Counted from the first letter of the stretch, positions 47,888 to 62,598 are shown. The stretch: DNA of 64,000 nt from Robiginitalea sp. SC105 (GCF_014243345.1 NZ_JACLZF010000001.1:744001-808000), one strand, 5' to 3'. Notes: a model not told the origin generated them from the sequence alone. Translations and numbers: made by a program.

Positions 47888-48799
47888 CTAGGGGTCGACC
47901 GATTTGTAGGCCTGGATCACTGCTTCCTCTCCGGGGGTTCCTTCCATGGAATTCCCGTGTTCCATTCCCAGGATCCCGTTGTAACCCCGGCCCAACAGGT
48001 ACCGGAAAACATTGGCGTAGTTGATCTCCCCGGTGGTTGGTTCCTTTCGCCCGGGGTTGTCGCCAATCTGGAAATAGGCAATTTCGTCCCAGCAGGCCCC
48101 GATATTCGGGATGAGGTTGCCTTCCTGTATCTGCTGGTGGTAAATGTCAAAGAGGATTTTGCAGGCAGGGGAATTTACAGCACGGCAAATTTCATAGGCC
48201 TGGGCCGACCCGCTCAGGAACATGCCGGGGTGATCCCTGAAATTCAGGGGCTCCAGCACCATGACCAGGCCATGGGGTTCCAGGATATCTGCGGCTTGTC
48301 GGAGACTTTCAACCACACTGGCTGTCTGATGGCCCATATCGCGCCTTAAATCGAGGTGACCGGGCACTACCGTCATCCACTTTGCATTGACGCGTCTGGC
48401 TACGTCTACGGCTGCCCGGATCTCTTCCAGGAATTCCTCCCGGAGGGCCGGATCCCCGGATGCCAGGTTTGGTTTATCCCAATAGATGGCATGTGCCACA
48501 AAGACCCCCATCCGAAGTCCCCGCTCCATCATTACCCGGGCCATGGCTTCTTGCATGGCCACAGGCCGGTTGGGCATCCCGTTATCCTCAAACGAACGGA
48601 AACCCGCATCGGCCATAAATCGCAATTGATCCAGCGGGTCGTCACCGGCACTGCCCTTGAACATCCCGAGGTGGGGGGCGTAATCCAGAGTGAAGCCCTC
48701 CTGGGGGCGTGCTTGCCGAGCCTGGCCAAATGAAAAAGGGCTTGCGGCGCCCAGGGCAGCCGCAAGCCCTGTATTGCGTATGAATTTCCTGCGTTCCAA
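47888..48799 (-). CDS. Tat-exported TIM-barrel hydroxypyruvate/sugar isomerase family protein, 303 aa
   Basis: Xylose-isomerase-like TIM barrel (AP_endonuc_2 superfamily) exported by Tat: RRKFIRN starts a signal ending near FSFGQA (about residue 26). The barrel resembles hydroxypyruvate isomerase, with WMTVVPGHLD, LEPLNFRDHPGMFLS, KILFDIYHQQIQEGNL and LGMEHGNSMEGTPGEE; the Glu/Asp/His residues in these stretches form the metal site typical of the family. Periplasmic members like this occur in keto-sugar pathways, so isomerisation or elimination on a 3-keto sugar is more likely than true hydroxypyruvate isomerase activity. The gene is 11 nt after the subunit-3 gene, in the order GMC, subunit 3, isomerase. 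Confidence 0.88.
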   Translation of the reverse strand: MERRKFIRNTGLAAALGAASPFSFGQARQARPQEGFTLDYAPHLGMFKGSAGDDPLDQLRFMADAGFRSFEDNGMPNRPVAMQEAMARVMMERGLRMGVFVAHAIYWDKPNLASGDPALREEFLEEIRAAVDVARRVNAKWMTVVPGHLDLRRDMGHQTASVVESLRQAADILEPHGLVMVLEPLNFRDHPGMFLSGSAQAYEICRAVNSPACKILFDIYHQQIQEGNLIPNIGACWDEIAYFQIGDNPGRKEPTTGEINYANVFRYLLGRGYNGILGMEHGNSMEGTPGEEAVIQAYKSVDP

Positions 48800-48810
48800 A
48801 ACCTCCTGGG

Positions 48811-49461
48811 TCAGATGGACCAGGCCTTGCCGCCTGTGAGTTCGTTCAGGTCGCCACAGGGGATATATTCGCCGGGTACCGGCAGGTAGGCCAGCACCTC
48901 TTCCCCAATGTATTCGGAACTCTTGAAGGCCCAGATGGTTGCGCCCCTCAGGTTGTTGGCAAAACTATACCGGGATATGGCTTCGTCCAGGGTAGCTTCC
49001 TCCCCGGATTCCACTGCTTCCTGGTAAGAGCCGATGGCCTCCATGATCACGGCCTCTTCCTCGGGGCTCCGTTTGGCCAGGCTTTCGGCAAGTACGGGCT
49101 CCAGGTCCTCTGCGGTCAGGTCTTCAGCGGTTTCCTTTCCGGAATCCGCCTGTGCCTTCGCAATAAATGCACCCATAGCCATTTTCATGAAGTCCTGTTC
49201 GGCCCTGGGGGGCACGGCCTCCATATAGCTGTCGATAAAGGCGTGCACCTGCAGCTCGGAAGCCGAAGGGGTATCGGTTTTCGGCAGGATGATATCCACC
49301 AGTTGCAACAATACCCCGCCTTCTGCCGGGCTGAAAAATACCGGGGTCCAGGTGGGCCCGGCTTCCTGCTGGCAGCTTTGCAGGATGCTCATTACCGTTG
49401 GGGTTGCCAGGGTCCAACCCATGGCCATTCCCATATTTCTTAAGGCTTTTCTTCTTTCCAT
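48811..49461 (-). CDS. Gluconate 2-dehydrogenase subunit 3 family protein, 216 aa
   Basis: Small subunit of periplasmic GMC-type dehydrogenases (Gluconate_2-dh3 family). A twin-arginine signal (RRKALRN, then about residues 10-28) ends at a Cys (ILQSC, about residue 29), so it may be both Tat-exported and lipidated. The mature part is helical, with LLQLVDIILPKTDTPSASELQVHAFID typical of the family. The partner flavoprotein has no signal and probably hitch-hikes through Tat with this subunit. The ATG at 49461 overlaps the GMC stop by one base (TAATG), giving tight 1:1 coupling. The longer frame to 49596 is antiphase to the GMC gene. Confidence 0.92.
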   Translation of the reverse strand: MERRKALRNMGMAMGWTLATPTVMSILQSCQQEAGPTWTPVFFSPAEGGVLLQLVDIILPKTDTPSASELQVHAFIDSYMEAVPPRAEQDFMKMAMGAFIAKAQADSGKETAEDLTAEDLEPVLAESLAKRSPEEEAVIMEAIGSYQEAVESGEEATLDEAISRYSFANNLRGATIWAFKSSEYIGEEVLAYLPVPGEYIPCGDLNELTGGKAWSI

Positions 49462-51173
49462 TAGATGTTTCCTTTTTTGAGTTCTTTTACAGCGTGGTCT
49501 GCTGCGCGGGCCGTAAAGGCCATATAGGTGAGCGATGGGTTGACACAGGCCGCCGACGTCATAAAGGCCCCGTCGGTCACGTAGACATTTTTGCAATCGT
49601 GCACCTGGTTGTAGGCATTCACCACAGAGGTACGGCGGTCCCTGCCCATGCGGGCAGTGCCCATCTCGTGGATCCCCAGGCCAAGGGCGCTTTGGCCATT
49701 GAAGGGGGTTACATCGCGGAAGCCTGCTTTTTCGAGCATATCCGCCGCCTGTTCCATCATATCCTGGCGCATGTTCAGTTCGTTTTCCTTGTAGCCGGCA
49801 TCAAAAGTCACGGTAGGCAGCCCCCACTGGTCTTTTTTGTCGAAATCCAGGGTCATCCGGTTGTCCTCGTAGGGCAGTACCTCGCCGAAGCCGCCCATGC
49901 CGAAGGTCCAGCCCCCCGGTTTGAGGATGGCCTCTTTCAGGTCCTTCCCATGGGATAACTCGCCGATGGTATCCTCCCAGTTGCCGCGGCTGGCGCCCCC
50001 CTGGTATCCATACCCGCGTTTGAAGCTGTCCACGTTGGTCTTGCCTCCGAGGTTCCGGAAACGGGGCAGGTAGATCCCATTTGGCTTGCGGCCTTTGTAA
50101 TACTTGTCTTCGTACCCGTCGAATTTTCCAGAGGCCCCCACATTCAGGTGGTGGTCCATGATGTTCCGCCCCAGCTGGTCCGAGTCGTTGCCCAGGCCGT
50201 TCGGGAAGCGGTCGGAGCGGGACTGCATGAGGATGGAGGACGAGGCGATCGCGGAGGCGCAGAGGAAGACCACCTTGGCCTTGAATTCAAATTCCTCTTT
50301 GGTAATGCGGTCGATGATTTTTACCCCAGTTGCTTTTTTGGTGTCCGGGTCATAGACGATTTCATGTACGATGGAATCCGGTCTCAGGGTCAGGTTGCCC
50401 GTACGCTCGGCGGCCGGCAGCGTGGACGACACGCTGCTGAAATAGGCCCCGAAAGGACAACCGCGGATACAGCGGTTGCGGAACTGGCAGCGGTTGCGGC
50501 CCTCGTATTGCTTGTCGCTGTTGATGTGGGCCACGCGGCCCGCGGTGACCACCCGGTCATCGTACTGTTCGGACAGTTTGGTGCGGAAATGATCCTCCAC
50601 GCAGTTGAGTTCCATCATGGGTTCGAAAACCCCGTCCGGCAGCTGGGGCAACCCAAGCTTTTCGCCCGTCACCCCGATATAGGCCTCGACCTTGTCGTAC
50701 CAGGGTGCAATGTCCCGGTAACGCACCGGCCAATCCACGGCGATGCCTTCCTTGAGGTTCGCCTCAAAATCGATGTCGCTCCAGCGGTAGCTGTGCCGGC
50801 CCCACATGATGGAGCGTCCGCCCACGTGGTACCCGCGCATCCAGTCGAACCGCTGTGTTTCGTTATAAGGGTGCTCCAGGTCATTGACAAACCAGAAGTT
50901 GTGTTGGGCCCGGGTCGTGTAACCGGTCCGGGCCTGTTTTTCCTGCTTGGCGGCTTCCTCCCTGGGGAGCTGGCCACCGTGGGGGAAATCCCAGTCATCC
51001 ATATTCGCAGTGGGATAATCCTCGATGTGCCTGACCATCCGGCCGCGCTCCAGTACGAGGGTTTTCAGGCCCGCCTCACAGAGTTCCTTAGCGGCCCAGC
51101 CTCCGCTGATCCCGCTGCCAACCACGATGGCGTCGTAGGAATCCTGCTCCTGGTTGTAATAGAATTTACTCAT
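49461..51173 (-). CDS. GMC-family oxidoreductase, 570 aa
   Basis: FAD-dependent sugar or alcohol dehydrogenase. The N-terminal FAD-binding motif is VVGSGISGGWAAKEL (about 17-31), followed by the family block GGRSIMWGRHSYRW and a cysteine-rich insertion with CQFRNRCIRGCPFGAYFSS (three cysteines, seen in gluconate/sorbitol-dehydrogenase-like members). The C-terminal GMC domain carries GIHEMGTARMG and NPSLTYMAFTARAAD with the catalytic His/Asn. No signal peptide of its own; it overlaps the Tat-bearing subunit-3 gene. Oxidation of a sugar hydroxyl (such as C3) is inferred from neighbours. Its closest relative in the window is the protein encoded at 57130-58836. No cytochrome c subunit is present. 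Confidence 0.95.
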   Translation of the reverse strand: MSKFYYNQEQDSYDAIVVGSGISGGWAAKELCEAGLKTLVLERGRMVRHIEDYPTANMDDWDFPHGGQLPREEAAKQEKQARTGYTTRAQHNFWFVNDLEHPYNETQRFDWMRGYHVGGRSIMWGRHSYRWSDIDFEANLKEGIAVDWPVRYRDIAPWYDKVEAYIGVTGEKLGLPQLPDGVFEPMMELNCVEDHFRTKLSEQYDDRVVTAGRVAHINSDKQYEGRNRCQFRNRCIRGCPFGAYFSSVSSTLPAAERTGNLTLRPDSIVHEIVYDPDTKKATGVKIIDRITKEEFEFKAKVVFLCASAIASSSILMQSRSDRFPNGLGNDSDQLGRNIMDHHLNVGASGKFDGYEDKYYKGRKPNGIYLPRFRNLGGKTNVDSFKRGYGYQGGASRGNWEDTIGELSHGKDLKEAILKPGGWTFGMGGFGEVLPYEDNRMTLDFDKKDQWGLPTVTFDAGYKENELNMRQDMMEQAADMLEKAGFRDVTPFNGQSALGLGIHEMGTARMGRDRRTSVVNAYNQVHDCKNVYVTDGAFMTSAACVNPSLTYMAFTARAADHAVKELKKGNI

Positions 51174-51380
51174 CTAGAATGATTGTTTAGTTCTTAAAAG
51201 TATTAAATATTAAATTAATTTTCTACATTTAAACGCCCATAAATCCTAGGGTTTTGCATCAAAGAAGGCCTAAATATAAGGATAATGCAATGAGTGCGAA
51301 AACCTTGAATCAAGGATTAACATACTGCCGCCCGGCAGGGCCGAATAGACCAATAACTAACCAATAGTATTATTTAACCG

Positions 51381-52379
51381 ATGAAAAGAAGAAAATTCCT
51401 CTACCAGAGTGCCTCCGCGTCAGCCGCTGTTTCCCTTTTCGGGGTGATGGCCTGCAAGGGTGAAAACAAGAAAGAACAGGAAAGTGCCGACTCGATGACA
51501 GAAGCCGCCGCCGAACCGTTTTTCAAGCTTTCCCTGGCACAGTGGTCCATCAACCGGATGATCCGCAACGATGGCGTGGATCCGTATACGTTTGCCGAAA
51601 AGGCCAAGGGTTGGGGCTTTACCGGCCTGGAGTACGTGAGCCAGCTGTATAACAGCACCCTGGAACCCGCAGGTTATTCCCCGGAAGCCATGCAGGAATT
51701 TGTAGATAAATGCAACGCCGAAGCCGCCAAGCACGGCCTGCAGAATGTGTTGATCATGGTCGATGGACAGGGGAACCTGGCCGTCTCCGACCCGGCAGAG
51801 CGCAAAGCGGCTGTCGAAAACCATTACAAATGGGTGGATGCTGCCGCCGGTATGGGATGCCATGCGATCCGGGTCAACCTTGCAGGCAGCAACAACCCGG
51901 AAGAATGGATCCCCAATTCGGTGGACGGTCTTACCCAGCTGGGCACCTATGCGCAGGGGAAAGGCATCAATGTCCTGGTCGAAAATCACGGGGGCCTCTC
52001 CTCCAACGGTGCCCTGATGGCCCAGGTCTTTGAACAGGTGGAATTGGATAACTGCGGAACCCTCCCGGATTTCGGGAACTTCTGCATCCGCCGGAATGAC
52101 CCCTCGGACTGGGGGTCGGGCTGCGCCGAAATGTACGATATCTATAAGGGCGTCCGGGAACTGATGCCCTACGCCAAAGCTGTTAGTGCCAAAGCCCATG
52201 ACTTCGGGCCCGATGGCTATGAAGCGGAGATCGATTATGTCCGCATGCTGAAAATCGTCAAAGACGCCGGCTATACCGGTTACATTGGCGTGGAATACGA
52301 AGGAAGCGAGTTGGGCGAGGAGGCCGGTATTATCGCCACGAGGGATTTATTGATTAAGGCTGCCGGCGAGCTGTCTTAA
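51381..52379 (+). CDS. Tat-exported lipoprotein sugar isomerase/epimerase (TIM barrel), 332 aa
   Basis: AP_endonuc_2/xylose-isomerase-like TIM barrel with an exported N-terminus: RRKFLYQ twin-arginine motif, hydrophobic stretch and lipobox GVMAC (Cys about residue 25). Barrel strands carry LVENHGGLSSNG, LPDFGNFCI and YIGVEYEGSELGEE, containing acidic metal ligands. It is therefore a lipid-anchored periplasmic sugar isomerase/epimerase or keto-sugar lyase. The gene is divergent from the GMC gene and opens a plus-strand run: isomerase, DinB, two MFS, Gfo/Idh/MocA. Confidence 0.9.
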   Translation: MKRRKFLYQSASASAAVSLFGVMACKGENKKEQESADSMTEAAAEPFFKLSLAQWSINRMIRNDGVDPYTFAEKAKGWGFTGLEYVSQLYNSTLEPAGYSPEAMQEFVDKCNAEAAKHGLQNVLIMVDGQGNLAVSDPAERKAAVENHYKWVDAAAGMGCHAIRVNLAGSNNPEEWIPNSVDGLTQLGTYAQGKGINVLVENHGGLSSNGALMAQVFEQVELDNCGTLPDFGNFCIRRNDPSDWGSGCAEMYDIYKGVRELMPYAKAVSAKAHDFGPDGYEAEIDYVRMLKIVKDAGYTGYIGVEYEGSELGEEAGIIATRDLLIKAAGELS

Positions 52380-52391
52380 GGAGGCATTTGG

Positions 52392-52835
52392 ATGAAAACA
52401 TATTTCCAGCAACTTTTTGATTACAATTACTACTGTAACAAAAGGCTAATCGAGGCGTGCTCCGAAATGGAAGAAGTGCCTGCCCGGACAGCAGAGTTAT
52501 TCAGCCACATCCTCAATGCCCACCATATCTGGAATGCACGCATCCTGGAGAACGACCCTCAGTTCGAAGTCTGGCAGCGGCAGGAAATCGACCAATGGCC
52601 GGACCTTCACTACGAAAACCAGCGGAACTCCTTTGAGGTGATCACCAACGCGGACCACCTGGAAAAACGGGTCGGCTACCTCACTTCGGACGGAAGGTCC
52701 TTTACCAACACGCTGCAGGATATCCTGTTCCACATCATCAACCATTCCACCCATCACCGGGCACAGATCGCCTCCGATTTCAGGGCCAACGGGAAAGACC
52801 CCCTGGCGCTAGACTATATCTTCTACAAGCGCTAA
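52392..52835 (+). CDS. DinB-family protein, 147 aa
   Basis: Four-helix DinB/YfiT-like metal-binding protein. The conserved histidines are visible: HILNAHHIWNARIL (about 47-60) and HIINHSTHHRAQI (about 117-129), which usually bind a divalent metal in thiol-transferase-like members. Cytoplasmic. It starts 12 nt after the isomerase gene and 10 nt before the MFS gene, so it is in the sugar operon, but its function there is unknown; a metal- or thiol-dependent modification of a sugar or detoxification of an intermediate are possibilities only. Confidence 0.88.
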   Translation: MKTYFQQLFDYNYYCNKRLIEACSEMEEVPARTAELFSHILNAHHIWNARILENDPQFEVWQRQEIDQWPDLHYENQRNSFEVITNADHLEKRVGYLTSDGRSFTNTLQDILFHIINHSTHHRAQIASDFRANGKDPLALDYIFYKR

Positions 52836-52845
52836 CCCACTGGAA

Positions 52846-54054
52846 ATGAAAGGCCGCATCCAAGTACAGCTTTCCGTGATGATGTTCCTGGAATTTTTTG
52901 TCTGGGGGAGCTGGTTTGTCACCATGGGGACCTACCTGGGTCGCAGCCTCAATACGGATGCGGCAGCTGTCGGGACCGCCTACATGACACAATCCTGGGG
53001 GGCCATTGTCGCCCCGTTTATCGTGGGCCTGATTGCCGATCGTTTTTTTGCAGCCCAGAAGATGCTGGGGGTCATCCATATCTGCGGGGCGGTGCTCATG
53101 TACCTGATCGGCTCAACGGACGATTTTGCCCTGTTCTACCCGTTGCTCCTGGTCTATATGATCCTGTATATGCCCACACTGGCCCTGGCCAACAGCGTGG
53201 CGTTCAACCAGCTTACAGACCCTTCAAAACAATTCGCCCGCATCCGGATCTGGGGGACGATCGGCTGGATTGCCGCCGGCATGTTCATCGGTTATGTGAT
53301 GCAGTGGGAGGCGAGCAACCTGTTGGGCAGGACCTTCCTGCTGGCCGCAGGATCCTCCCTGGCCCTCGGGCTTTTCAGTTTTACCCTCCCGGATACGCCC
53401 CCCAAATCGAAGGGCGATAAAATCACCCTGGCAGACATACTCGGCCTGGAGGCATTGAAACTGCTCAGGGGAAAAAATTACCTGATGTTCTTCCTCTCGA
53501 GCATCCTCATTTGCATCCCCCTGGCCTTTTACTACAGTTTTGCCAACCCCTTCCTCAACGAGGTGGGTATGGAGAATGCAGCGGGCAATATGGCCTTCGG
53601 CCAGATCTCGGAAGTGCTTTTCCTGCTGTTGCTCCCGGTTTTCCTAAACCGGTTTGGCCTGAAATGGACCCTCATTGTCGGGATGCTCGCCTGGGGGCTC
53701 CGCTATACCCTTTTCGCGTTCGGCGATGCGGAAGGCGGGGTATGGATGCTGTTCACCGGGATTGTACTCCACGGCATCTGCTACGACTTCTTTTTTGTCT
53801 CCGGCCAGATCTATACGGATGTCAAGGCGGGGGAGCGCATCCGCAGTGCTGCCCAGGGCCTCATTACCCTGGCCACCTATGGGGTGGGCATGCTGATCGG
53901 CTATAAGGTGTCCGGGATCATCGTGGATGCCTATCTCACCGACGGGGGGCACGACTGGCAGGAAATCTGGCTCTACCCGGCCGTATTTTCCTATGGGGTC
54001 CTGCTGTTGTTTATCCTGTTCTTCCGCAATGAGAAAGTGAGCTACCAACTATAA
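52846..54054 (+). CDS. MFS permease, nucleoside:H+ symporter-like, 402 aa
   Basis: Twelve-TM major facilitator of the NHS (NupG/XapB-like) family. The N-terminal MFLEFFVWGSWFVTMGTYL and ARIRIWGTIGWIAAGMFIGY stretches are characteristic. NHS-family members of Bacteroidetes sugar clusters need not carry nucleosides; position beside isomerases suggests a monosaccharide or keto-sugar. It starts 10 nt after the DinB gene. Confidence 0.9.
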   Translation: MKGRIQVQLSVMMFLEFFVWGSWFVTMGTYLGRSLNTDAAAVGTAYMTQSWGAIVAPFIVGLIADRFFAAQKMLGVIHICGAVLMYLIGSTDDFALFYPLLLVYMILYMPTLALANSVAFNQLTDPSKQFARIRIWGTIGWIAAGMFIGYVMQWEASNLLGRTFLLAAGSSLALGLFSFTLPDTPPKSKGDKITLADILGLEALKLLRGKNYLMFFLSSILICIPLAFYYSFANPFLNEVGMENAAGNMAFGQISEVLFLLLLPVFLNRFGLKWTLIVGMLAWGLRYTLFAFGDAEGGVWMLFTGIVLHGICYDFFFVSGQIYTDVKAGERIRSAAQGLITLATYGVGMLIGYKVSGIIVDAYLTDGGHDWQEIWLYPAVFSYGVLLLFILFFRNEKVSYQL

Positions 54055-54097
54055 TTTTAATATATTGAACGCAATCAACTGAACTAAAACAAACATT

Positions 54098-55339
54098 ATG
54101 AAACAGATTAACAGAAAGCGGGTATTCCTGGCTGCATGTATTTCCCTGGTGGTAACATCCATGACCTTCGCCATCCGGGCGGGGATCCTGGACCAGCTTG
54201 GCCTGCAATTCGACCTCTCGGATACGGAACTGGGTTATATTAACGGGATCGCCTTCTTCGGTTTTCCCATCGCAACGCTGGTGGGCGGATTACTATACAA
54301 TCTCATTGGCCCCAAAAAGCTGATGATGATTGCCTTCTTTTCGCACATCATCGGTTTGGTGATGACCATTTACGCCGGCGGGTTCTGGACCCTGTTGATC
54401 TCCACATTCTTCATCGGCTTTGCCAATGGCTCCGTGGAAGCGGCGTGTAACCCGATGATCGCGGATATGTTTACACGCAACCGGACCGCGATGCTCAGTA
54501 AATTCCATGTCTGGTTCCCGGGGGGTATCGTGATCGGGGCCCTGGTATCCAAATTCATGACCGATTGGGGGATGGGCTGGCAGTCGCAGATTGCCGTCAT
54601 GCTGATCCCCACGCTGATCTACGGTTTTATGTTCTTCCGGGAAGCCCTTCCCGCCAATGAGCACATGGAAACGGATACGCGGCTCAATATCAAAGCACTT
54701 TCGGACCCGCTGTTCTTATTCATCATTGTCTGTATGACGCTGACTGCCATTTCGGAATTCGGCCCCCAGCAATGGGTGGAGCGCATCCTTGGGAATTCCG
54801 GGGCCCAGCCGATGCTGGTCCTGGCCATGGTCACCGGCATCATGGCGCTCGGGCGCTATTTCGGGGGCTTCCTCGTACACCGGCTCAACCCCATCGGCGT
54901 CCTGCTGATGTCGGCCATCGTCACTACGGTGGCGGTGTATAGCATGAGCATAGCCGAAGGCGGGATGATCTATGCGGCGGCCATACTCTTTGCCCTCGGG
55001 GTCTGCTATTTCTGGCCGACCATGATCGGGTTTACCTCGGAATACATCCCCAAAACCGGGGCCCTGGGAATGTCCCTGGTCGGCGGGGCAGGGATGCTCT
55101 CCACGGCCATCTGGCAACCCGTAATCGGTTCCTGGCTGGATGGAGCAAGACAAGCTGCCATGGACGGCGGGATGGCCCAGGAAGTGGCTGAACTGGCCGC
55201 GGGGAAAGCCACCCTAGGGAAGATGATGTTCTTCCCGCTCACCGTTGCCGTCCTGTTTGGTATCCTGTTCCTGTTCTTCCGCAAAAAACTGGAGCAACGC
55301 CGCGTTCCCCAGGCGCATGAAGCCACAGAGGTAGTCTGA
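54098..55339 (+). CDS. MFS transporter, FucP-like, 413 aa
   Basis: Second twelve-TM permease, resembling fucose/glucose-galactose H+ symporters (FucP group). Conserved features are LGYINGIAFFGFPIATLVGGLLYN, FIGFANGSVEAACNPMIAD (TM5-like motif) and FSNELI-less C-half with LGVCYFWPTMIGFTSEY. A long central hydrophilic loop (about 190-205) separates the halves. It starts 43 nt after the first permease gene. Two adjacent, unrelated permeases suggest that two related compounds (for example the intact sugar and its keto derivative) are imported, but this is inference. Confidence 0.9.
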   Translation: MKQINRKRVFLAACISLVVTSMTFAIRAGILDQLGLQFDLSDTELGYINGIAFFGFPIATLVGGLLYNLIGPKKLMMIAFFSHIIGLVMTIYAGGFWTLLISTFFIGFANGSVEAACNPMIADMFTRNRTAMLSKFHVWFPGGIVIGALVSKFMTDWGMGWQSQIAVMLIPTLIYGFMFFREALPANEHMETDTRLNIKALSDPLFLFIIVCMTLTAISEFGPQQWVERILGNSGAQPMLVLAMVTGIMALGRYFGGFLVHRLNPIGVLLMSAIVTTVAVYSMSIAEGGMIYAAAILFALGVCYFWPTMIGFTSEYIPKTGALGMSLVGGAGMLSTAIWQPVIGSWLDGARQAAMDGGMAQEVAELAAGKATLGKMMFFPLTVAVLFGILFLFFRKKLEQRRVPQAHEATEVV

Positions 55340-55381
55340 AACCTAATAGGAAGTTTATCAATTATCCATTAAATACATATT

Positions 55382-56518
55382 ATGCCTGAAAAGATAAGAC
55401 TGGGTATCCTCGGAGGAGGAGGCGACTCCCTCATCGGAGTCCTCCACCGGGTTGCTGCCCACATGTACGACAGTTACGAAATAACCGGTGCCGTATTTAA
55501 CCCGGACCACGAGCAGAGCCTGGAATTTGCCAGGGAACTTGGGATATCCACCGATCGGATCTACGAGGATTTCGATGCGCTGGTAGCCGGGGAGAAAAAA
55601 TTGCCCGAATCCGAGCGGATTCAGGTGTGTTCCATCCTCACGCCGAATTTCCTGCATTACCCGATGGCCAAAAAGCTCCTCGAGAATGGATTCCACGTCA
55701 TTTGCGAAAAGCCGATGACCACCACCTACGAGGAAGCCAAAACACTGCGGGACCTGCAAGCCAAATCAGGCAAGGTGTTTGCCGTGACACATACGTATAC
55801 GGGCTATCCAATGGTCCGGCAGATGCGGGAGATGATCAAAGCCGGCGCCCTTGGTCGGATCCACAAGGTGGATGCGCGGTATTACCAGGGCTGGATCAAC
55901 CCGATTATCCACGATGCGGAAAAACGGAGTTCCGTTTGGCGCCTGGACCCCAAAAAAGCGGGGATCAGTTCCTGCATGGGCGACATAGGGGTACACGCCT
56001 TCAACATGATCGAATACACCACGGGGCTGAAGGTGAAATCGCTCCTCTGCGATTTCAACTACCTGTATGAAGACAACGTCATGGACGTTGATGGCACCGT
56101 GCTCATCCGGTTGGGCGACCACGTGAAGGGCGTGATCCGCGCCAGCCAGGTGGCCACCGGCGAAGAGAACGGGCTTGCCATCACCATATACGGGGAAAAA
56201 GCCGGATTCCGGTGGGAACAGGAACGCCCGAATTTCCTGTACCTGTTGTCCGACACCGATCCGGTGCAGGTGTACAAACCCGGCCATGCCTACAATTCGG
56301 CACTCAGCCTGGACGGCACCAAGCTGCCCGCCGGTCACCCGGAGGGGATCTTTGATGCCATGGGGAACATCTACCGGGGCGTGGCCCGGGCAATCCGCGG
56401 CCAGGAGTACAATAACGGGGAATTCCCCACCATCACCGACGGCGTCCGGGGGCTCAATTTTATCGAAGCCACCGTGGCATCCCACAAGTCCGGGAATACC
56501 TGGGTGAAGCTGGATTGA
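55382..56518 (+). CDS. Gfo/Idh/MocA-family oxidoreductase (cytoplasmic), 378 aa
   Basis: NAD(P)-dependent sugar oxidoreductase without signal peptide. The Rossmann motif is LGILGGGGDSLIG (about 7-19), and VICEKPMTTTYEEAKTLRDL supplies the EKP lysine. The C-terminal domain has GRIHKVDARYYQGW, SSCMGDIGVHAFNMIEY (catalytic Asp/His pair) and a Lys-rich tail. It probably reduces an imported keto-sugar or oxidises a sugar in the cytoplasm. It is the last gene of the plus-strand run and is followed by a clear terminator. Confidence 0.93.
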   Translation: MPEKIRLGILGGGGDSLIGVLHRVAAHMYDSYEITGAVFNPDHEQSLEFARELGISTDRIYEDFDALVAGEKKLPESERIQVCSILTPNFLHYPMAKKLLENGFHVICEKPMTTTYEEAKTLRDLQAKSGKVFAVTHTYTGYPMVRQMREMIKAGALGRIHKVDARYYQGWINPIIHDAEKRSSVWRLDPKKAGISSCMGDIGVHAFNMIEYTTGLKVKSLLCDFNYLYEDNVMDVDGTVLIRLGDHVKGVIRASQVATGEENGLAITIYGEKAGFRWEQERPNFLYLLSDTDPVQVYKPGHAYNSALSLDGTKLPAGHPEGIFDAMGNIYRGVARAIRGQEYNNGEFPTITDGVRGLNFIEATVASHKSGNTWVKLD

Positions 56519-56540
56519 CGCTCAGACAGCAATGATGATG

Positions 56541-56566
56541 AAAGCCCGGTGTTTCCGGGCTTTTTT
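56541..56566 (+). terminator. Rho-independent terminator after the Gfo/Idh/MocA gene
   Basis: AAAGCCCGG, loop TGTTT, CCGGGCTTTTTT. It closes the plus-strand sugar operon. Confidence 0.88.
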
Positions 56567-56650
56567 ATTTGGCACGCGTGCTGGCTTTTTGCGGGGGTAG
56601 AGCGTAAATTGATTTCAGGGGAGGAGGGAGTACTTCCCCCCATTCCAAAC

Positions 56651-57115
56651 TCACCCTTCGTAGACTTTTTCGAACACCTCGCAAACCACGATCATGCTTT
56701 CCCTCGGGACACGTCCAAAAGGGGCCAGTTCCCGGGCAAAGGATTCCCAGTGGGCCTCTTTCCACTGCTCCAGGGAGCCGTCCCCTTCGCCCTCGAGCTT
56801 GGCGTAGGAGGAGGAGATGCTGAAAAACGGCTTCAGCCGGACAGCCACGGTGCGCAGGATACACTTTGCATTTCCCTCCCAGTCTGTCAGGATGGTGAAA
56901 TCCCCGATTTGCGGCAGGGATTCCCCCCGGTGCTGTATGCCGAGCAGGGAGTGGCTGTAGGACCGTTTATTGCCATTGCAGATGAGTTTCAGGTTGCGGT
57001 CGGCCTCCTCGGGGTTGTTTCCCAGTGGGCGGACCTTTGGTTCGCCCGAAAAGGCGTATTCCAGGTGGCGGTCAAGATAATCGCCCCAAAGGCGTTTAGC
57101 GCTGGTGTTTTTCAT
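56651..57115 (-). CDS. ASCH-domain protein, 154 aa
   Basis: Small cytoplasmic protein with an ASCH (PUA-related, RNA-binding-like) fold. FTILTDWEGNAKCILRTVAVRLKPF and WKEAHWESFARELAPFGRV correspond to the conserved strands and helix of family members; LICNGNKRSYSHSLLG is also typical. ASCH proteins are thought to bind RNA or modified nucleotides; no catalytic residue can be proposed here. The ATG at 57115 is chosen over an extension that overlaps the GMC gene. It lies 14 nt after the second GMC gene on the same strand, an odd pairing. Confidence 0.85.
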   Translation of the reverse strand: MKNTSAKRLWGDYLDRHLEYAFSGEPKVRPLGNNPEEADRNLKLICNGNKRSYSHSLLGIQHRGESLPQIGDFTILTDWEGNAKCILRTVAVRLKPFFSISSSYAKLEGEGDGSLEQWKEAHWESFARELAPFGRVPRESMIVVCEVFEKVYEG

Positions 57116-57129
57116 TGAGATTTGTAGGG

Positions 57130-58836
57130 TTAACTGAATGCACCTGCCTTGAATTGGTCGGCCGCATGGGCAGCAGCCCTGGCAGTAAAGGCCATATAGG
57201 TAAGGGACGGGTTCACGCAATTTGCGGAGGTCATGAATGCCCCGTCGGTGACATAGATGTTGGGTACGTCGTGTACCTGGTTGTGCTTATTGACCACGGA
57301 GGTCTTCGGGTCGTGGCCCATGCGGGCCCCGCCCATTTCGTGTATGCCCAGCCCCGGCCCGGTTTCCCGTTCGTAGGTGCGGATATCCCGGAATCCCGCC
57401 GCCTCGAACATGGCGACGATCTGCCGGAGGATGTCTTCCCGCATCCGGTATTCATTTTCTTTGAACTCCACGTCAAAATCGAGCTGGGGGAGCCCCCACT
57501 GGTCGCGTTCGGAAGGGCTCAGGCGCACCCGGTTGTCGTGATAGGGCAGCATTTCCCCAAATCCGGTAGCACCGATGGTCCATGTCCCCGGCTTCCCAAT
57601 CACCTCTTTCAAACCGGCCCCGTAGCCCATCTCGGCCACGGATTCCGTCCAGTCACCCCGGCTGGCCGACCCCTGGTAACCAAAGCCCCGGATATAGGCT
57701 TTCTTTTCCGAATCCCTGCCCATGTTCACAAAGCGCGGGATATAGAAACCATTGGGGCGCCGGCCCTTGTAATACTTGTCCAGGTGCCCCTCCACTTTGG
57801 CATTGGCCCCCAACTGGTAGTGGTGGTCCATGATATTCCGGCCAAGCTGGTCGTAATTGTTGCCAATCCCTTCCGGGAAGCGTGCGCTTTTGGATTGGAG
57901 CAGGATGCCCACCGATGCCATGGCCGAGGCACAGAGGAAGATGACTTTAGCGTTGAAGGTGAGTTTTTCGTGTGTTTCCGCATCGATGACCCGGACGCCG
58001 GTGGCCCGGCCTGTGGCTTCATCCACGATGATTTCATGGACGATGGCCAGGGGCATCAGGGTCATGTTCCCGGTGCGTTCCGCTGCGGGAAGCGTGCTGG
58101 AATTGCTGCTGAAATAGCCCCCGAACGGACACCCCCTCCAGCAGCGGTTCCGGTACTGGCAGGCGTTGCGGCCTTCAGGGACATTATTGGGGTCCGTGAC
58201 GTGGGCGGCCCGCCCCACGGTGAGCAGGCGGCCGTCCGTGAAGGACCCGGCAATTGCCTTCTTGAGGTCTTCTTCCGGGCAGTTCAGCCCCATGGGCGGC
58301 TGGAAGACGCCGTCCGGCAGGTGGGGCAGGCCCAGGGCCTCTCCGCTGACACCGATATAGGACTCCACCTTGTCGTACCAGGGGGCAATGTCCTTATAGC
58401 GAACCGGCCAGTCTACCGCAATCCCGTCCCTTTTGTTGGCCTCAAAATCCAGGTCGCTCCAGCGGTAACTCTGCCGGCCCCAGGTGAGCGACCGGCCCCC
58501 CACCTGGTAGCCGCGGATCCAGTCGAACCGTTTGGTTTCCTGGTAGGGGTGCTCCAGGTCGTTGACAAAGAAATGCGCCACATCGGGCCGTGGTGCCCAT
58601 CCCACCCGGAGTTGTTTGTGGTACTGCCGTTGCCGTTCCCGGTCCATCTCGTTGCGGTAGGGCAGGTCCCAGTCGTCCAGGTTGGCAGTGGGGTAGTCCT
58701 CGATGTGTTTTACCATTTTGCCGCGCTCCAGCACCAGGGTCCTGAGCCCCTTTTCGCAAAGTTCCTTGGCAGCCCATCCACCGGTGATACCGGTGCCTAC
58801 GACAATTGCATCGTATTCTCCTGAGGGTTTGATCAC
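57130..58836 (-). CDS. GMC-family oxidoreductase (second copy), 568 aa
   Basis: Paralog of the protein encoded at 49461-51173: FAD motif VVGTGITGGWAAKEL near residue 12, GGRSLTWGRQSYRW, cysteine-rich CQYRNRCWRGCPFGGYFSS, and C-terminal GIHEMGGARMG with NPSLTYMAFTARAAA. It also lacks a signal peptide. No subunit-3 gene is adjacent, so if it is exported it may share the subunit encoded at 48811. Sequence differences between the two copies lie mostly in the substrate-binding middle part, suggesting different substrates. It is divergent from the isomerase gene at 59056. Confidence 0.95.
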   Translation of the reverse strand: MIKPSGEYDAIVVGTGITGGWAAKELCEKGLRTLVLERGKMVKHIEDYPTANLDDWDLPYRNEMDRERQRQYHKQLRVGWAPRPDVAHFFVNDLEHPYQETKRFDWIRGYQVGGRSLTWGRQSYRWSDLDFEANKRDGIAVDWPVRYKDIAPWYDKVESYIGVSGEALGLPHLPDGVFQPPMGLNCPEEDLKKAIAGSFTDGRLLTVGRAAHVTDPNNVPEGRNACQYRNRCWRGCPFGGYFSSNSSTLPAAERTGNMTLMPLAIVHEIIVDEATGRATGVRVIDAETHEKLTFNAKVIFLCASAMASVGILLQSKSARFPEGIGNNYDQLGRNIMDHHYQLGANAKVEGHLDKYYKGRRPNGFYIPRFVNMGRDSEKKAYIRGFGYQGSASRGDWTESVAEMGYGAGLKEVIGKPGTWTIGATGFGEMLPYHDNRVRLSPSERDQWGLPQLDFDVEFKENEYRMREDILRQIVAMFEAAGFRDIRTYERETGPGLGIHEMGGARMGHDPKTSVVNKHNQVHDVPNIYVTDGAFMTSANCVNPSLTYMAFTARAAAHAADQFKAGAFS

Positions 58837-59055
58837 GATTCCACGGTTTATTCTCGGGTATTTTCTATATTTATGTCGGCCGCATGGCGACCACCCGAAT
58901 TACAATTCATTAAATATAGGGTATAATTCACAAACTGCTGCGGGAATACGGCGCCGGGAGGACCGGTGGCAGGGCCCCTGTCCAGGTGCTTTTCCGTGCA
59001 GTTATCCCCCCGTAGTTCGGGACCGATTTTAAACTACCATAAAAACCAGACAGAG

Positions 59056-60108
59056 ATGAAAACAATTAAAGGGCCGGCCGTTTTTCTGGCTCAGTTCGTG
59101 GACAACAAAGCACCTTTTAACAGCCTGGACGGAATGTGCAAATGGGCCTCCGACCTCGGGTACAAGGGAATACAGATACCGACCTGGGAGCACTTCCTGA
59201 TCGACCTCGACAAGGCCGCGGAAAGCCAGGATTACTGCGATGAACTCAAGGGAAAGGTGCAATCCTACGGCCTGGAGATTACCGAACTGTCCACCCACCT
59301 GCAGGGACAGCTCGTTGCCGTACACCCCGCTTATGACCTGATGTTCGACAATTTTGCGCCGGACAAGGTAAAGAACAACCCAAAGGCGCGCACGGAGTGG
59401 GCCGTCGACGTGGTGAAGAAGGCCGCGACAGCGAGCCGGCGGCTGGGGATCAAGGCACATGCGACTTTTTCAGGCGCCCTGTTGTGGCATACCTTCCACC
59501 CCTGGCCCCAGCGCCCCCCGGGACTGGTGGAAATGGGGTTTGAAGAACTGGCCAAACGCTGGAAGCCGATCCTGGACCACTTTGACAAGGAAGGCGTGGA
59601 CGTCTGCTATGAGATCCACCCCGGTGAAGACCTCCACGACGGGGACACCTTTGAGCGCTTCCTGGAAGCGACCGGGAACCACCCCCGGGTCAACATCCTC
59701 TACGACCCCAGCCATTTTGTGCTGCAGCAACTGGATTACATCGAATACATCGACCATTACCACGAGTTCATCAAGTCCTTCCACGTCAAGGATTCCGAAT
59801 TCAACCCCACCGGCAAGAAAGGGGCCTTCGGGGGCTACAACGACTGGGGCAACCGTGCGGGCCGCTACCGATCCCTGGGCGACGGGCAGATAGACTTCAA
59901 GACCATCTTTTCCAAACTGACCCAGTACGGTTGCGACGTTTGGGCAGTCATGGAATGGGAATGCTGCATCAAGAGCCCGGAACAGGGTGCCCGGGAGGGG
60001 GCCGAATTCATCCGGGACCACATCATTGAGGCCACCGAAAAGACCTTTGATGATTTTGCCGGCGGGGATATCGACAAGGACATGCTCCGGAAAATTTTGG
60101 GATTATAA
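59056..60108 (+). CDS. Sugar phosphate isomerase/epimerase family protein (cytoplasmic TIM barrel), 350 aa
   Basis: AP_endonuc_2-type TIM barrel without a signal peptide. Metal-site stretches are VCYEIHPGEDLHDG, ILYDPSHFVLQQLDY, SFHVKDSEF and VWAVMEWECC, resembling sugar epimerases and inositol-pathway isomerases. Members of this kind act as isomerases or beta-eliminases on keto-sugars. The ATG at 59056 starts the homologous region; the in-frame extension from 58966 is rejected. Together with the two exported relatives in the window it completes a periplasmic/cytoplasmic set. The DUF1080 gene follows 25 nt downstream. Confidence 0.9.
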   Translation: MKTIKGPAVFLAQFVDNKAPFNSLDGMCKWASDLGYKGIQIPTWEHFLIDLDKAAESQDYCDELKGKVQSYGLEITELSTHLQGQLVAVHPAYDLMFDNFAPDKVKNNPKARTEWAVDVVKKAATASRRLGIKAHATFSGALLWHTFHPWPQRPPGLVEMGFEELAKRWKPILDHFDKEGVDVCYEIHPGEDLHDGDTFERFLEATGNHPRVNILYDPSHFVLQQLDYIEYIDHYHEFIKSFHVKDSEFNPTGKKGAFGGYNDWGNRAGRYRSLGDGQIDFKTIFSKLTQYGCDVWAVMEWECCIKSPEQGAREGAEFIRDHIIEATEKTFDDFAGGDIDKDMLRKILGL

Positions 60109-60133
60109 CGAATCAGACAACTTTAAAACAACC

Positions 60134-60889
60134 ATGAAAAAAATAACGATGTTAGCCTGTGCCTGCCTGGTGATCCTGGGCTGCAAGGAAAAAAAGGAAA
60201 CCGAAACGGAGGCCGCGGCGGAAGCCATGGAAACCGCCGAAATGGGCGAAACCGCCGAAGCGGAATGGATTGTGCTCTTTGACGGCACCTCCTTCGACGG
60301 CTGGAAGGGCTACAACCAGCAAGGGGTACCCGACGCCTGGACCATCGAGGATGGCGCCATGGTGCTGACCCCGCCCGAGCAACGCCCCGAGGGGGCCAAT
60401 TACAACCTGGTCACCGAATCCGCCTATAAGAATTTTGTGCTTTCCCTGGAATGGCAGATCAGCGAGGGGGGCAACAGCGGTGTCTTCTGGGGCGTCGAGG
60501 AGCTGGACCGGTTTGGCCAGCCTTACGAAACGGGGCCGGAGATCCAGGTGCTGGACAACGAGAAACACCCGGATGCGAAGGCCGGGACAACCCACCAGGC
60601 AGGAGCCCTCTATGACATGATCGCCCCTGCCAGGGACGTCACAAACCCCGTAGGCGAGTGGAACACCATGGAAATCACGGTAGACTATGAAGGCCAGTCC
60701 GGGAAGGTCGTGCTCAACGGCACGGAACTGCTCACCTTCCCCCTGGGGAATGAAGCCTGGGACGCCATGGTGGCCGATTCCAAATTCGACGGCTGGGAAG
60801 GCTTCGGGAAATTCCCGGAAGGCAAGATCGGCCTGCAGGATCACGGGGACAAAGTAGCCTTCAGGAATATCAAACTTAAACCGCTGTAA
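60134..60889 (+). CDS. DUF1080 / 3-keto-disaccharide hydrolase-domain lipoprotein, 251 aa
   Basis: Lipid-anchored concanavalin-like domain protein. The signal ends at LVILGC (Cys about residue 16), followed by a very acidic Glu/Ala/Thr-rich spacer (about 17-42) and then the DUF1080 domain: WIVLFDGTSFDGWKGY, FVLSLEWQISEGGNSGVFWGV, GPEIQVLDNEKHPD, and GKIGLQDHGDKVAFRNIKLKPL. DUF1080 is the family now named 3-keto-disaccharide hydrolase, so it should cleave 3-keto-glycosides in the periplasm. It is followed by a paralog after 1 nt, a tandem duplication or diversified pair. Confidence 0.92.
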   Translation: MKKITMLACACLVILGCKEKKETETEAAAEAMETAEMGETAEAEWIVLFDGTSFDGWKGYNQQGVPDAWTIEDGAMVLTPPEQRPEGANYNLVTESAYKNFVLSLEWQISEGGNSGVFWGVEELDRFGQPYETGPEIQVLDNEKHPDAKAGTTHQAGALYDMIAPARDVTNPVGEWNTMEITVDYEGQSGKVVLNGTELLTFPLGNEAWDAMVADSKFDGWEGFGKFPEGKIGLQDHGDKVAFRNIKLKPL

Positions 60890-60890
60890 G

Positions 60891-61706
60891 ATGAAAAAAT
60901 ACCTAACCGGGCTGCTGGCCCTGGCCTTGCTGGCTTCCTGCCAGGAAAAAGTGGAAGTCATGGAACCTGAACCGGTGAGCGGCGAGCCGCAGCCAATCGT
61001 CCATGAGGAATACCAGGGGGAGGAACCCACCACCCCCGAGGAGACGGAATTCTATGAACCGGTACCACCCACGGTACAGCCCTATGCCCAGGGCGGGGCG
61101 CCGAGCGATGCCGTCGTCCTCTTTGACGGCAGCGGCTTTGAGAACTGGCAGATGGTGAACGACAGCTCCGATGTGAAATGGCACCTGAATGACGACGGCA
61201 GCATGACCGTGGCCGATAAAACCGGCGACATCCAGACCAAACAGGAGTTCGGCGACATACAGCTCCACCTGGAGTGGCGCTCCCCGGCAGAGATCGGGGG
61301 GGATGGCCAGCACCGCGCCAACAGCGGGGTTTTCCTGTGCGGCATCTACGAGGTCCAGGTGCTGGACAACAACGACAACGACACCTATGTGAACGGGCAG
61401 GTCGCCTCGATTTACAAGCAGCATGTTCCCCTGGCAAAGGCTTCGGTCCCCACCGGCGAATGGAATACCTACGACATCATTTTCCACATGCCCGAGTTCA
61501 ACGAGGCAGGGGAGAAGATCAAGTCGGGGACGCTGACCGTTATCCACAACGGCGTCCTGGTTCAGGACCATGTGGAGCTCAAGGGCACCACGCCCTATAT
61601 AGGCTGGCCGGACAACCCGCCCCACGGCAAGGGGCCGCTCAGGCTGCAGGACCACGGGGATAACAGCCGGGTGAGTTACCGGAATATCTGGGTTCGCGAA
61701 CTCTGA
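60891..61706 (+). CDS. DUF1080 / 3-keto-disaccharide hydrolase-domain lipoprotein (second), 271 aa
   Basis: Second DUF1080 lipoprotein: lipobox LLASC (Cys about residue 17), Pro/Glu-rich spacer (about 20-65), then VVLFDGSGFENWQMV, LHLEWRSPAEIGGDGQHRANSGVFL, YEVQVLDNNDND and LRLQDHGDNSRVSYRNIWV. Sequence is clearly diverged from its neighbour, with extra loops (DIIFHMPEFNEAGEKIKSG), suggesting a different glycoside linkage or aglycone. Start follows the previous stop by 1 nt. The yicC gene downstream has its own promoter. Confidence 0.92.
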   Translation: MKKYLTGLLALALLASCQEKVEVMEPEPVSGEPQPIVHEEYQGEEPTTPEETEFYEPVPPTVQPYAQGGAPSDAVVLFDGSGFENWQMVNDSSDVKWHLNDDGSMTVADKTGDIQTKQEFGDIQLHLEWRSPAEIGGDGQHRANSGVFLCGIYEVQVLDNNDNDTYVNGQVASIYKQHVPLAKASVPTGEWNTYDIIFHMPEFNEAGEKIKSGTLTVIHNGVLVQDHVELKGTTPYIGWPDNPPHGKGPLRLQDHGDNSRVSYRNIWVREL

Positions 61707-61712
61707 TTTTAC

Positions 61713-61720
61713 TACCTTTG
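61713..61720 (+). promoter_or_regulatory. -7 promoter element TACCTTTG
   Basis: Exact TAnnTTTG, 20 nt before the yicC start. It marks the boundary between the sugar cluster and housekeeping genes. Confidence 0.55.
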
Positions 61721-61740
61721 GCAAAACAGCCCACACAGGT

Positions 61741-62598
61741 ATGATCCATTCCATGACCGGGTTCGGGAAACACGTCATCCAGCTTCCCGGCAAGAAAATA
61801 ACGGTAGAACTTAAATCCCTCAACAGCAAGAGCCTGGACATCAATGCCCGGGTGCCCCAGGCATACCGGGAAAAGGAGTTGGTTTTCAGGAACCGAATCG
61901 CCCAGGAACTGGAGCGGGGGAAGGTGGACATGAGCCTCTATGTGGAGCTAACGGGCGACCAGCCTTCGGCGGAGATCAACGCGGCTGTGGTCCGCAAATA
62001 CATGGATCAGCTCCGGGAGCTGGCAGACGGGGAGCCCCAGGGTTTCCTGGAAATGGCGCTCCGCCTGCCCGATTCCCTGCGGACCGAGCGGGAGGAAATC
62101 GACCCGGAGGAATACGCTGCCATCGAAGCGGCCCTGCTGGAGGCCATCGGGGAGCTGCAACAATTCCGCCGGGACGAGGGCAAGGCGCTGGAGGCCGACT
62201 TCCGCCAGAGGATAGCTGCGATTTCGGCCCACCTGAAAGAGGTGGAAAGCCGGGACGGGGAACGCCTGGCCGCCGTGAGGGAACGCCTGCAGAAAGCGGT
62301 AGCGGAAATCCGGGAATCGGTCGATGAGAACCGGTTTGAACAGGAGCTCATCTTCTACCTGGAAAAATATGACATCACCGAGGAAAAAGTCAGGCTCTCC
62401 AAGCACCTGGAATATTTTGGGCAAAGCCTGGAAAGCGCCGATTCCAACGGTAAGAAACTCGGATTTATCTGCCAGGAAATCGGCCGGGAGATCAATACCA
62501 TCGGCTCCAAGGCAAACGATGCGCCCATGCAGCGGATCGTGGTACAGATGAAGGACGAACTGGAGAAAGTAAAAGAACAAATCCTCAACGTACTCTGA
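61741..62598 (+). CDS. yicC: YicC-family endoribonuclease-like protein, 285 aa
   Basis: Conserved YicC protein, in other bacteria linked to RNA cleavage and stationary-phase survival. The N-terminus MIHSMTGFGK and LKSLNSKSLDINARVP are diagnostic, and the C-terminal DUF1732 segment ends with KLGFICQEIGREINTIGSKANDA. Long helical middle region. Its stop overlaps the gmk start by one base (TGATG), and it is the first gene of a yicC-gmk-nadD unit, a common order in Bacteroidetes. Confidence 0.96.
   Translation: MIHSMTGFGKHVIQLPGKKITVELKSLNSKSLDINARVPQAYREKELVFRNRIAQELERGKVDMSLYVELTGDQPSAEINAAVVRKYMDQLRELADGEPQGFLEMALRLPDSLRTEREEIDPEEYAAIEAALLEAIGELQQFRRDEGKALEADFRQRIAAISAHLKEVESRDGERLAAVRERLQKAVAEIRESVDENRFEQELIFYLEKYDITEEKVRLSKHLEYFGQSLESADSNGKKLGFICQEIGREINTIGSKANDAPMQRIVVQMKDELEKVKEQILNVL

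Follow-up and report, generated by a model that had tools for sequence, protein, structure and literature searches.

A thirteen-gene locus next to yicC-gmk

We analysed a 64,000-nt stretch of Robiginitalea sp. SC105 (GCF_014243345.1 NZ_JACLZF010000001.1:744001-808000), hereafter the window, and focused on positions 47,888-61,706, a candidate locus for glycoside catabolism through 3-keto intermediates. Pfam profile scans identified 13 genes in the locus, which is flanked upstream by ribonucleotide reductase genes (43,722-47,309) and downstream by yicC-gmk (61,741-63,203). The genes are organized into four apparent transcription units that form two divergent pairs, in the order TIM1-sub3-GMC1 (−), TIM2-DinB-MFS1-MFS2-Gfo (+), ASCH-GMC2 (−) and HYD-DUFa-DUFb (+). 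Divergent starts are separated by 207 and 219 bp, and gaps inside units range from −1 to 43 bp. An intrinsic-terminator-like hairpin with a 10-pair stem and a T-run (56540-56564, + strand) sits where the two middle units converge; it is a pattern match only, and the region holds 19 terminator-like sites against 16.5 (sd 3.8) in shuffled sequence. A promoter scan returned 7 sites against 7.7 in shuffles, the Bacteroidetes −7 box, which we take to be TAnnTTTG, was absent from the five stretches scanned for it, and no Rfam family was matched in the whole window. DUFb and yicC share a strand and lie only 34 bp apart (61707-61740), which means that transcription of the catabolic operon may continue into yicC-gmk.

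A previous, sequence-only reading had listed two GMC oxidoreductases, a subunit 3 protein, three TIM barrels, a Gfo/Idh/MocA enzyme, two MFS permeases, two DUF1080 proteins and a DinB-like protein, and Pfam recovered all of these domains; an ASCH gene was not in that inventory. The same reading had noted that SusC/SusD and classical glycoside hydrolases are missing, and this held as well, as none of the 13 proteins matched either in the Pfam scans. With no SusC/SusD pair among the 13, we rejected a SusCD polysaccharide utilization locus. The scans likewise revealed no regulator among the locus proteins. Export was judged by inspection of N-termini together with a motif test on orthologues. TIM1 (Tat-like) and TIM2 (Tat-like with a lipobox) have exported-type N-termini and the third barrel has none, in agreement, at the level of motifs, with the earlier claim that two of the three barrels are exported. 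DUFa and DUFb both have lipoprotein-type N-termini.

The third TIM barrel is a close homologue of a keto-glucal hydratase

HYD (TIM3; 59056-60108, + strand) is a cytoplasmic-type AP_endonuc_2 barrel that matches PDB entry 8ro4, named '2-hydroxy-3-keto-glucal hydratase', at 549 bits and over its full length (residues 1-350 on 1-349). The motifs YE-HPGED, YDPSHF, FHVKD and EWEC, which we take to have ligand roles, are kept between the two proteins. All three barrels of the locus belong to the same Pfam family (PF01261, E 5.9e-35, 1e-25 and 1.7e-40). No other protein of the locus is as conserved as HYD, whose median identity is 92%, while DUFa has 57% and DUFb 70%. Across 80 loci it is 89-95% identical, above the neighbouring NrdA (median 84%, range 68-88%, in the 17 of 80 loci showing NrdA). 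HYD is probably a cytoplasmic 2-hydroxy-3-keto-glucal hydratase, and because this third barrel matches 8ro4 over its full length, the locus probably acts by oxidation, elimination, hydration and reduction and not by simple hydrolysis. The sequence-only reading had pictured oxidation outside the inner membrane, DUF1080 cleavage of keto-glycosides, MFS import and cytoplasmic isomerisation or reduction. Homology and context favour its C3 oxidation outside, its cleavage, its import and its cytoplasmic reduction; plain hydrolysis, on the other hand, is most likely replaced by elimination and hydration, since the cytoplasmic barrel is a close hydratase homologue and not a sugar isomerase.

Reduction would fall to the Gfo/Idh/MocA protein (55382-56518, + strand; PF01408 E 3.6e-22 plus C-terminal domains), which we consider a candidate cytoplasmic 3-keto-sugar reductase. 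Its best PDB matches are named merely 'oxidoreductase' (3v5n, 297 bits).

A putative GMC dehydrogenase with a Tat-type subunit and two DUF1080 lipoproteins

GMC1 (49461-51173, − strand; GMC_oxred_N/C) has HEMGTARMG and NPSLT motifs and no visible signal peptide. It overlaps by 1 bp the gene for subunit 3 (48811-49461, − strand; PF13618, Gluconate_2-dh3, E 1.7e-25), whose product has a Tat-like N-terminus and a lipobox-like LQSC. GMC2 (57130-58836, − strand), a second GMC dehydrogenase, is 63% identical to GMC1, also has no visible signal peptide and is without a subunit 3 of its own. The two match GMC_oxred_C in Pfam with E-values of 1.1e-23 and 1.8e-22, and HEMG..RMG and NPSLT, which we take as GMC motifs, are present in both and are kept in 61/61 and 60/61 GMC1 orthologues and in 55/56 and 56/56 GMC2 orthologues. 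The Tat-type PF13618 gene adjoins GMC1 only, and among the five GMC genes of the genome GMC2 alone has no PF13618 gene within ~1.5 kb. GMC1 is the putative catalytic subunit of a flavin glycoside 3-dehydrogenase, with subunit 3 as its putative small subunit and export escort. GMC2 may share this subunit or stay cytoplasmic; it is missing from 21 of 66 related loci and is present as two tandem copies in loci L029, L035, L038, L042 and L086.

We take LacA of Caulobacter and GlycDH to be GMC proteins, LacC and the TAT partner of GlycDH to be PF13618 proteins, and the third LacABC component to be a c-type cytochrome; a Caulobacter control genome carries both GMC and PF13618 domains. GlycDH, which oxidises glycosides at C3, uses FAD, belongs to the pyranose oxidase family and is co-expressed with a TAT-pathway signal protein (PMC10628242), pyranose oxidases are placed in the GMC superfamily (PMC10646112), and the three-component LacABC is encoded beside DUF1080 (PMC9007349). 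The suggestion that a GMC protein plus subunit 3 might be an undescribed oxidant therefore fell, as comparable oxidants (GlycDH/TAT, LacABC) are already in print. The GMC1 and subunit 3 pair would work like LacABC/GlycDH-type enzymes, but in the absence of a neighbouring cytochrome gene we do not count it as a LacABC enzyme. Elsewhere in the genome there are 14 Cytochrome_CBB3 matches, 12 of them above cut-off. A second GMC and PF13618 pair lies at G000:C1 1,495,078-1,497,395 (L102:9079-11396), its GMC 54% and its subunit 34% identical to those of the window, and a 1047-aa CxxCH protein encoded ~4 kb away could be an electron acceptor. A third cluster (L104:8569-11960; G000:C1 ~506.6-510.0 kb) comprises a PF13618 gene, a stretch resembling Gfo (25% identity with that of the window) and a GMC gene whose product shares 47-49% identity with GMC1/GMC2.

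DUFa (60134-60889, + strand; PF06439 E 1.2e-50) and DUFb (60891-61706, + strand; E 4e-40) are DUF1080 lipoproteins that score 172.6 and 138.3 bits against PF06439 (3keto-disac_hyd), for which the curated cut-off is 26.8. They are 27% identical to each other. In the PDB, DUFa scores best with 4jqt (156 bits) and 3h3l (151 bits) and reaches 140 bits with 8tda/8rr2; DUFb is of a 4qhz-type subgroup (250 bits). A lipobox-like N-terminus, by motif test only, occurs in 67/69 DUFa and 45/50 DUFb orthologues, and both window proteins have a C-terminal QDHG motif (at 235 and 253) whose His is kept in 61/69 and 44/50. DUFa is a putative 3-keto-glycoside lyase/hydrolase. An H275N variant of a Bacteroides thetaiotaomicron 3-keto-O-glycoside lyase is deficient in hydration activity (PMC13273386), so the wild-type lyase hydrates too; this lyase is likely a DUF1080 protein and its H275 likely the QDHG histidine. 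Across the whole genome the DUF1080 domain is matched eight times, in seven open frames, and the two proteins of the window account for a minority of these.

Conservation across Flavobacteriaceae

A HYD scan of the species genome collection gave at least 587 confirmed matches, and the loci of the best 80 of these, with HYD 89-95% identical, mutually related and cut at 10 kb, were examined. Gene order was tallied, without overlap, in the 66 loci whose flanks extend 10 kb or more ahead of HYD and 2.5 kb or more beyond it, with 14 dropped for short flanks. The recognised genes follow the window order in 66/66 loci. Among the 66, Gfo was recognised in all, YicC in 65, TIM2 and ASCH in 63 each, DUFa in 62, GMC1 in 60, MFS1 in 59, DinB in 58, sub3 in 56, DUFb in 55, GMC2 in 45 and MFS2 in 13; for the far-upstream genes the 10-kb cut gives lower bounds, at least 38 for TIM1 and at least 16 for NrdA. 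The genera include Robiginitalea, Zobellia, Maribacter, Arenibacter and Allomuricauda, which we take to be Flavobacteriaceae, and other loci are metagenome-assembled or uncultured. In 199 family genomes drawn evenly, HYD was present in 101 and absent from 98. The shared gene order shows the block to be real and more than chance. A literature search of open-licence PMC papers found no description of this flavobacterial locus.

Related clusters on proteobacterial plasmids

Modules of the locus also occur together outside Bacteroidota, where we examined six plasmid regions; HYD had matches in 351 plasmid records and GMC1 in 49. Pseudoalteromonas donghaensis has Gfo-HYD-MFS-DUF1080-GMC-sub3-TIM, with HYD 69% identical to that of the window, and Paracoccus liaowanqingii has HYD-Gfo-ABC transporter-TIM-GMC-sub3-DUF1080, with HYD 61% identical and a DUF1080 protein 50% identical to DUFb. 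Catenovulum adriaticum combines a TIM1-like gene with a heme protein, DUF1080, GMC and sub3 genes in that order, with no HYD in the stretch. Croceicoccus marinus has Gfo-HYD-sub3-GMC, plus a TIM/DUF6379 pair and a GH3 gene. In Rhizobium beringeri and Azospirillum argentinense HYD lies beside Gfo, accompanied by ABC transporters. HYD is 61-69% identical to that of the window in the five regions carrying it and adjoins Gfo in 5/5. GMCs 55-60% identical to GMC1 adjoin subunit 3 and DUF1080 on the Paracoccus and Catenovulum plasmids. In both Pseudoalteromonas and Paracoccus the DUF1080 proteins have signal-like and the sub3 proteins Tat-like N-termini, and HYD, Gfo and GMC have neither, which is the distribution seen in the window.

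Exported barrels and permeases

TIM1 (47888-48799, − strand; PF01261 E 5.9e-35) is a Tat-type exported AP_endonuc_2 barrel with the N-terminus MERRKFIRN... and a 46% identical homologue in the GMC/sub3/DUF1080 cluster of the Catenovulum plasmid. It is weakly hydroxypyruvate isomerase-like, and that assignment was rejected on its TIGR03234 score of 136 bits against a cut-off of 353. TIM2 (51381-52379, + strand; PF01261) is an exported lipoprotein-type barrel that matches PDB entry 4ovx at 259 bits. Its structural model (pLDDT 89) has 4ovx, named only by fold, as the best fold match, followed by C-glycoside eliminases and 3-epimerases, and TIM2 could be an eliminase or an epimerase. In 32 of 66 TIM2 sequences, hand-picked for spread and including that of the window, E201, D230 and E305 are kept in 32/32; we take these to be plausible metal-site acids. 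The window protein has a His at position 273, which only 19/32 share.

MFS1 (52846-54054, + strand; PF03825 E 1.4e-122) is a permease of the nucleoside:H+ symporter family (Nuc_H_symport) and MFS2 (54098-55339, + strand; PF07690 E 5.8e-29) an MFS_1 permease that is 56% identical to the permease of the Pseudoalteromonas cluster. MFS2 was recognised in only 13/66 loci, so MFS1 (59/66) or another permease must serve elsewhere.

A proposed four-step pathway and its alternatives

We infer enzyme activities, permease cargo, substrate and the roles of TIM1, TIM2, GMC2, DinB and ASCH from homology and gene context, and on this footing candidate genes for all four steps of a pathway are present in one conserved locus. 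GMC1, exported with the Tat-targeted subunit 3, would oxidise the C3 hydroxyl of a glucoside-type sugar outside the inner membrane and pass electrons to an acceptor encoded elsewhere. The exported DUF1080 lipoproteins would then split the 3-keto-glycoside by 1,2-elimination, setting free its aglycone or partner sugar together with 2-hydroxy-3-keto-glucal, and like a B. thetaiotaomicron lyase they may hydrate part of this glycal. An MFS permease would import the glycal and/or 3-keto-glucose; in the cytoplasm HYD would add water to give 3-keto-glucose, and Gfo/Idh/MocA would reduce this to glucose. That the glycoside is broken by elimination followed by hydration is the most likely reading, given how closely HYD resembles the hydratase deposited as 8ro4. 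We put the probability that the locus replaces hydrolysis with oxidation, elimination, hydration and reduction at roughly 0.8.

Several observations weigh against this proposal. With its lyase in the periplasm and its hydratase in the cytoplasm, the scheme would need a reactive enone to be imported. That 8ro4 is AtHYD, a putative hydratase of Agrobacterium tumefaciens (PMC10628242), or a close relative is our own inference. On the Rhizobium and Azospirillum plasmids there is no GMC or DUF1080 within 9 kb of HYD, so HYD is no proof of this exact pathway and probably serves other keto-sugar routes too; on the Azospirillum plasmid (L101), HYD-Gfo-xylA follows an ABC sugar importer. The Pseudoalteromonas GMC is just 31-33% identical to GMC1/2. 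None of the 13 locus proteins has a CxxCH (c-type cytochrome) motif or exceeds the cut-off of any NCBIfam model, and Gfo reaches 31 bits with the BT_2158 model (cut-off 750) and 91 bits with that for levoglucosan dehydrogenase (cut-off 650). Finally, none of ten Pedobacter DUF1080 genes showed a lactose phenotype (Price 2022, PMC9007349).

Since a B. thetaiotaomicron lyase can also hydrate, the species that crosses the membrane may be the glycal, 3-keto-glucose or both. This opens the less probable alternative that bifunctional DUF1080 proteins both cleave and hydrate outside, with free 3-keto-glucose imported and HYD mopping up residual glycal or running in the dehydration direction. The hydration deficiency of H275N (PMC13273386) and the QDHG His in DUFa, DUFb and most orthologues are consistent with it. 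Such an accessory role is, however, ill-suited to the most conserved protein of the locus, and in Pseudoalteromonas and Paracoccus a cytoplasmic-type HYD again accompanies exported-type DUF1080. It is rather unlikely that elimination instead belongs to an exported barrel, TIM2 or TIM1, with the DUF1080 proteins acting on other linkages. A precedent exists in AtOGE of Agrobacterium, a TIM barrel that carries a sugar phosphate isomerase annotation (PMC10628242), the TIM2 folds after 4ovx include the C-glycoside eliminases DgpB/C and DfgA/B, and the three acids of TIM2 are invariant in the alignment. Yet TIM2 matches 3-epimerases about equally well, its residue 273 varies, and Pfam scans found among the 13 proteins no DUF6379-type partner as expected of a C-glycoside eliminase. 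AtOGE (8bvk) was not among the PDB sequence matches of TIM1 or TIM2 at E 0.001 (the TIM2 fold list comprises the best 50 of 439 matches at E ≤0.001), and in the six plasmid regions TIM2 had a single weak match (24%, E 1e-8), in Croceicoccus.

The layout of the locus, with its two divergent intergenic regions and terminator-like hairpin, the absence of GMC2 from 21/66 loci and the low identity of DUFa to DUFb could be taken to indicate two adjacent glycoside modules for different substrates, GMC1/sub3/TIM1 with TIM2-DinB-MFS-Gfo and GMC2 with HYD-DUFa-DUFb. We regard this as improbable, as HYD and Gfo, which lie in separate units in the window, are neighbours on all five HYD-carrying plasmids, GMC2 lacks a dedicated subunit 3, and both halves keep their order in 66/66 loci. 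An inositol or other cyclitol substrate, with HYD as inosose dehydratase, Gfo as inositol dehydrogenase and the barrels as Iol-type isomerases, is very unlikely indeed. HYD does match IolE (60.1 bits) and Gfo IolG (45.3 bits), but far below the cut-offs of 290 and 355 and against 549 bits for HYD to 8ro4. Moreover, the IolB, IolC and IolD families had no match in the 13 proteins, the best IolD match in the genome reached 251 bits against a cut-off of 715, and an inositol route would have no use for DUF1080 or the GMC pair. With the IolE, IolG and IolD matches all below cut-off, we rejected this route.

A DinB-like protein linked to the locus

The DinB-like gene (52392-52835, + strand; PF05163 E 7.1e-14; 58/66 loci) encodes a protein of S-transferase-like fold. 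Homologues at E 1e-15 occur in 45 of the 199 family genomes: all 31 with at least 48% identity (own genome included) share a contig with HYD at a distance of ~11 kb or less, and none of the 14 with 38-45% identity is linked. The gene is thus a genuine locus member in part of the Flavobacteriaceae. For this gene the interest that the sequence-only reading took in a possibly undescribed variant stands, since it is truly linked in this subset and does not appear in the published clusters as far as these were available.

The model of the protein (pLDDT 95.7) is closest to B. subtilis YizA/BstH (2qe9, E 4.1e-5), with a mycothiol S-transferase third (E 6.4e-3), and suggests that the DinB-like protein may handle an electrophilic enone intermediate. 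We know of no thiol-dependent guard in a 3-keto-glycoside pathway, and our literature search turned up none. 3-Ketoglycals are Michael acceptors (PMC13273386), and a Polaribacter makes N-methyl-bacillithiol (PMC6336425). A speculative and quite doubtful extension of our proposal is that reactive 2-hydroxy-3-keto-glucal is imported and the cell guarded by the conserved HYD together with a DinB-fold bacillithiol/N-methyl-bacillithiol S-transferase that would capture or isomerise escaped enone. Speaking against such a guard, there are only two fold matches at E ≤0.001, the bacillithiol transferase activity of YizA (BstH) is weak (PMC5815605), and 70 of the 101 HYD-bearing family genomes have no linked DinB homologue. 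Likewise, in an alignment of 30 of 64 sequences, hand-picked for spread and including that of the window, all seven His positions examined are kept in 21 (window included) and at least one is changed in 9. In the Zobellia loci L036, L047 and L051 two or three of the seven are changed, possibly with loss of the metal site. BshC is found in 194/199 family genomes and in our own; being nearly universal, it fails to tell DinB-carrying genomes from the others.

The ASCH-domain protein (56651-57115, − strand; PF04266 E 6.8e-17) is encoded between Gfo and GMC2/HYD in 63/66 loci. NCBIfam gave no families for the DinB, DUFb and ASCH proteins.

Comparison with known systems

Flavobacteriaceae are usually described through SusCD loci, and here a candidate complete non-hydrolytic glycoside pathway lies beside yicC-gmk (and, flank permitting, ribonucleotide reductase) across many of them, with named candidates for every step split by compartment. 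Two questions thereby become testable: what intermediate is carried across the inner membrane, and for what reason the pathway is accompanied by a DinB-fold protein.

The Caulobacter crescentus lac cluster comprises LacABC, the DUF1080 proteins CCNA_01705 and CCNA_01698, a transporter, two sugar epimerases and a reductase, with fitness data for lactose; LacABC is three-component, membrane-bound and periplasmic, and CCNA_01705 has a putative signal peptide (PMC9007349). The window locus resembles it in its putative periplasmic dehydrogenase, DUF1080 proteins, barrels/epimerases, reductase and transporter. The same source places LacA-like genes close to DUF1080 genes in Halomonas titanicae, Algoriphagus aquaeductus and Indibacter alkaliphilus, and gives phenotypes for a putative lactose dehydrogenase of Pedobacter (PMC9007349). 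Unlike the Caulobacter cluster, the window locus has no cytochrome, a second GMC, DinB and ASCH genes and four transcription units. Data on lactose, raffinose and salicin are available for Caulobacter.

The gut Bacteroidetes 3-keto pathway of the BT2156-BT2160 type, said to have been described in 2024 by Nasseri in Nature and Kastner in Angew, reportedly shares DUF1080 proteins and four-step chemistry, and is said to use Gfo-type 3-dehydrogenases as oxidants instead of GMC plus subunit 3. The likeness lies in the DUF1080 proteins (DUFa 140 bits to 8tda/8rr2), whereas the window Gfo is far below the BT_2158/BT_2159 models.

In A. tumefaciens, an operon holds a GlycDH homologue, the eliminase AtOGE, the putative hydratase AtHYD, whose reaction was proposed on evidence that its authors call preliminary, and a Gfo reductase; GlycDH with its TAT-signal partner is from Rhizobium sp. 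GIN611, and oxidation-elimination-hydration-reduction chemistry has been published for phlorizin (Bitter 2023, PMC10628242). A flavoenzyme as C3 oxidant, a hydratase, a Gfo reductase and the four-step scheme would be common to both; the eliminase is the TIM barrel AtOGE in A. tumefaciens and most likely DUF1080 in the window locus. In the levoglucosan pathway LgdA-LgdB1-LgdB2-LgdC all four of these chemical steps have been demonstrated, and the glycal intermediate would be shared; its oxidant, though, is LgdA (levoglucosan dehydrogenase), an ABC transporter lies alongside, and GMC and DUF1080 are not in the four-enzyme scheme as described (Kuritani 2020, PMC7676230). The four-step pathway as a kind of system and an oxidant of this make-up are therefore already known; what is new is the recognition of the locus as a stable block in Flavobacteriaceae, the hydratase assigned to it, the compartment split and the linked DinB and ASCH genes.

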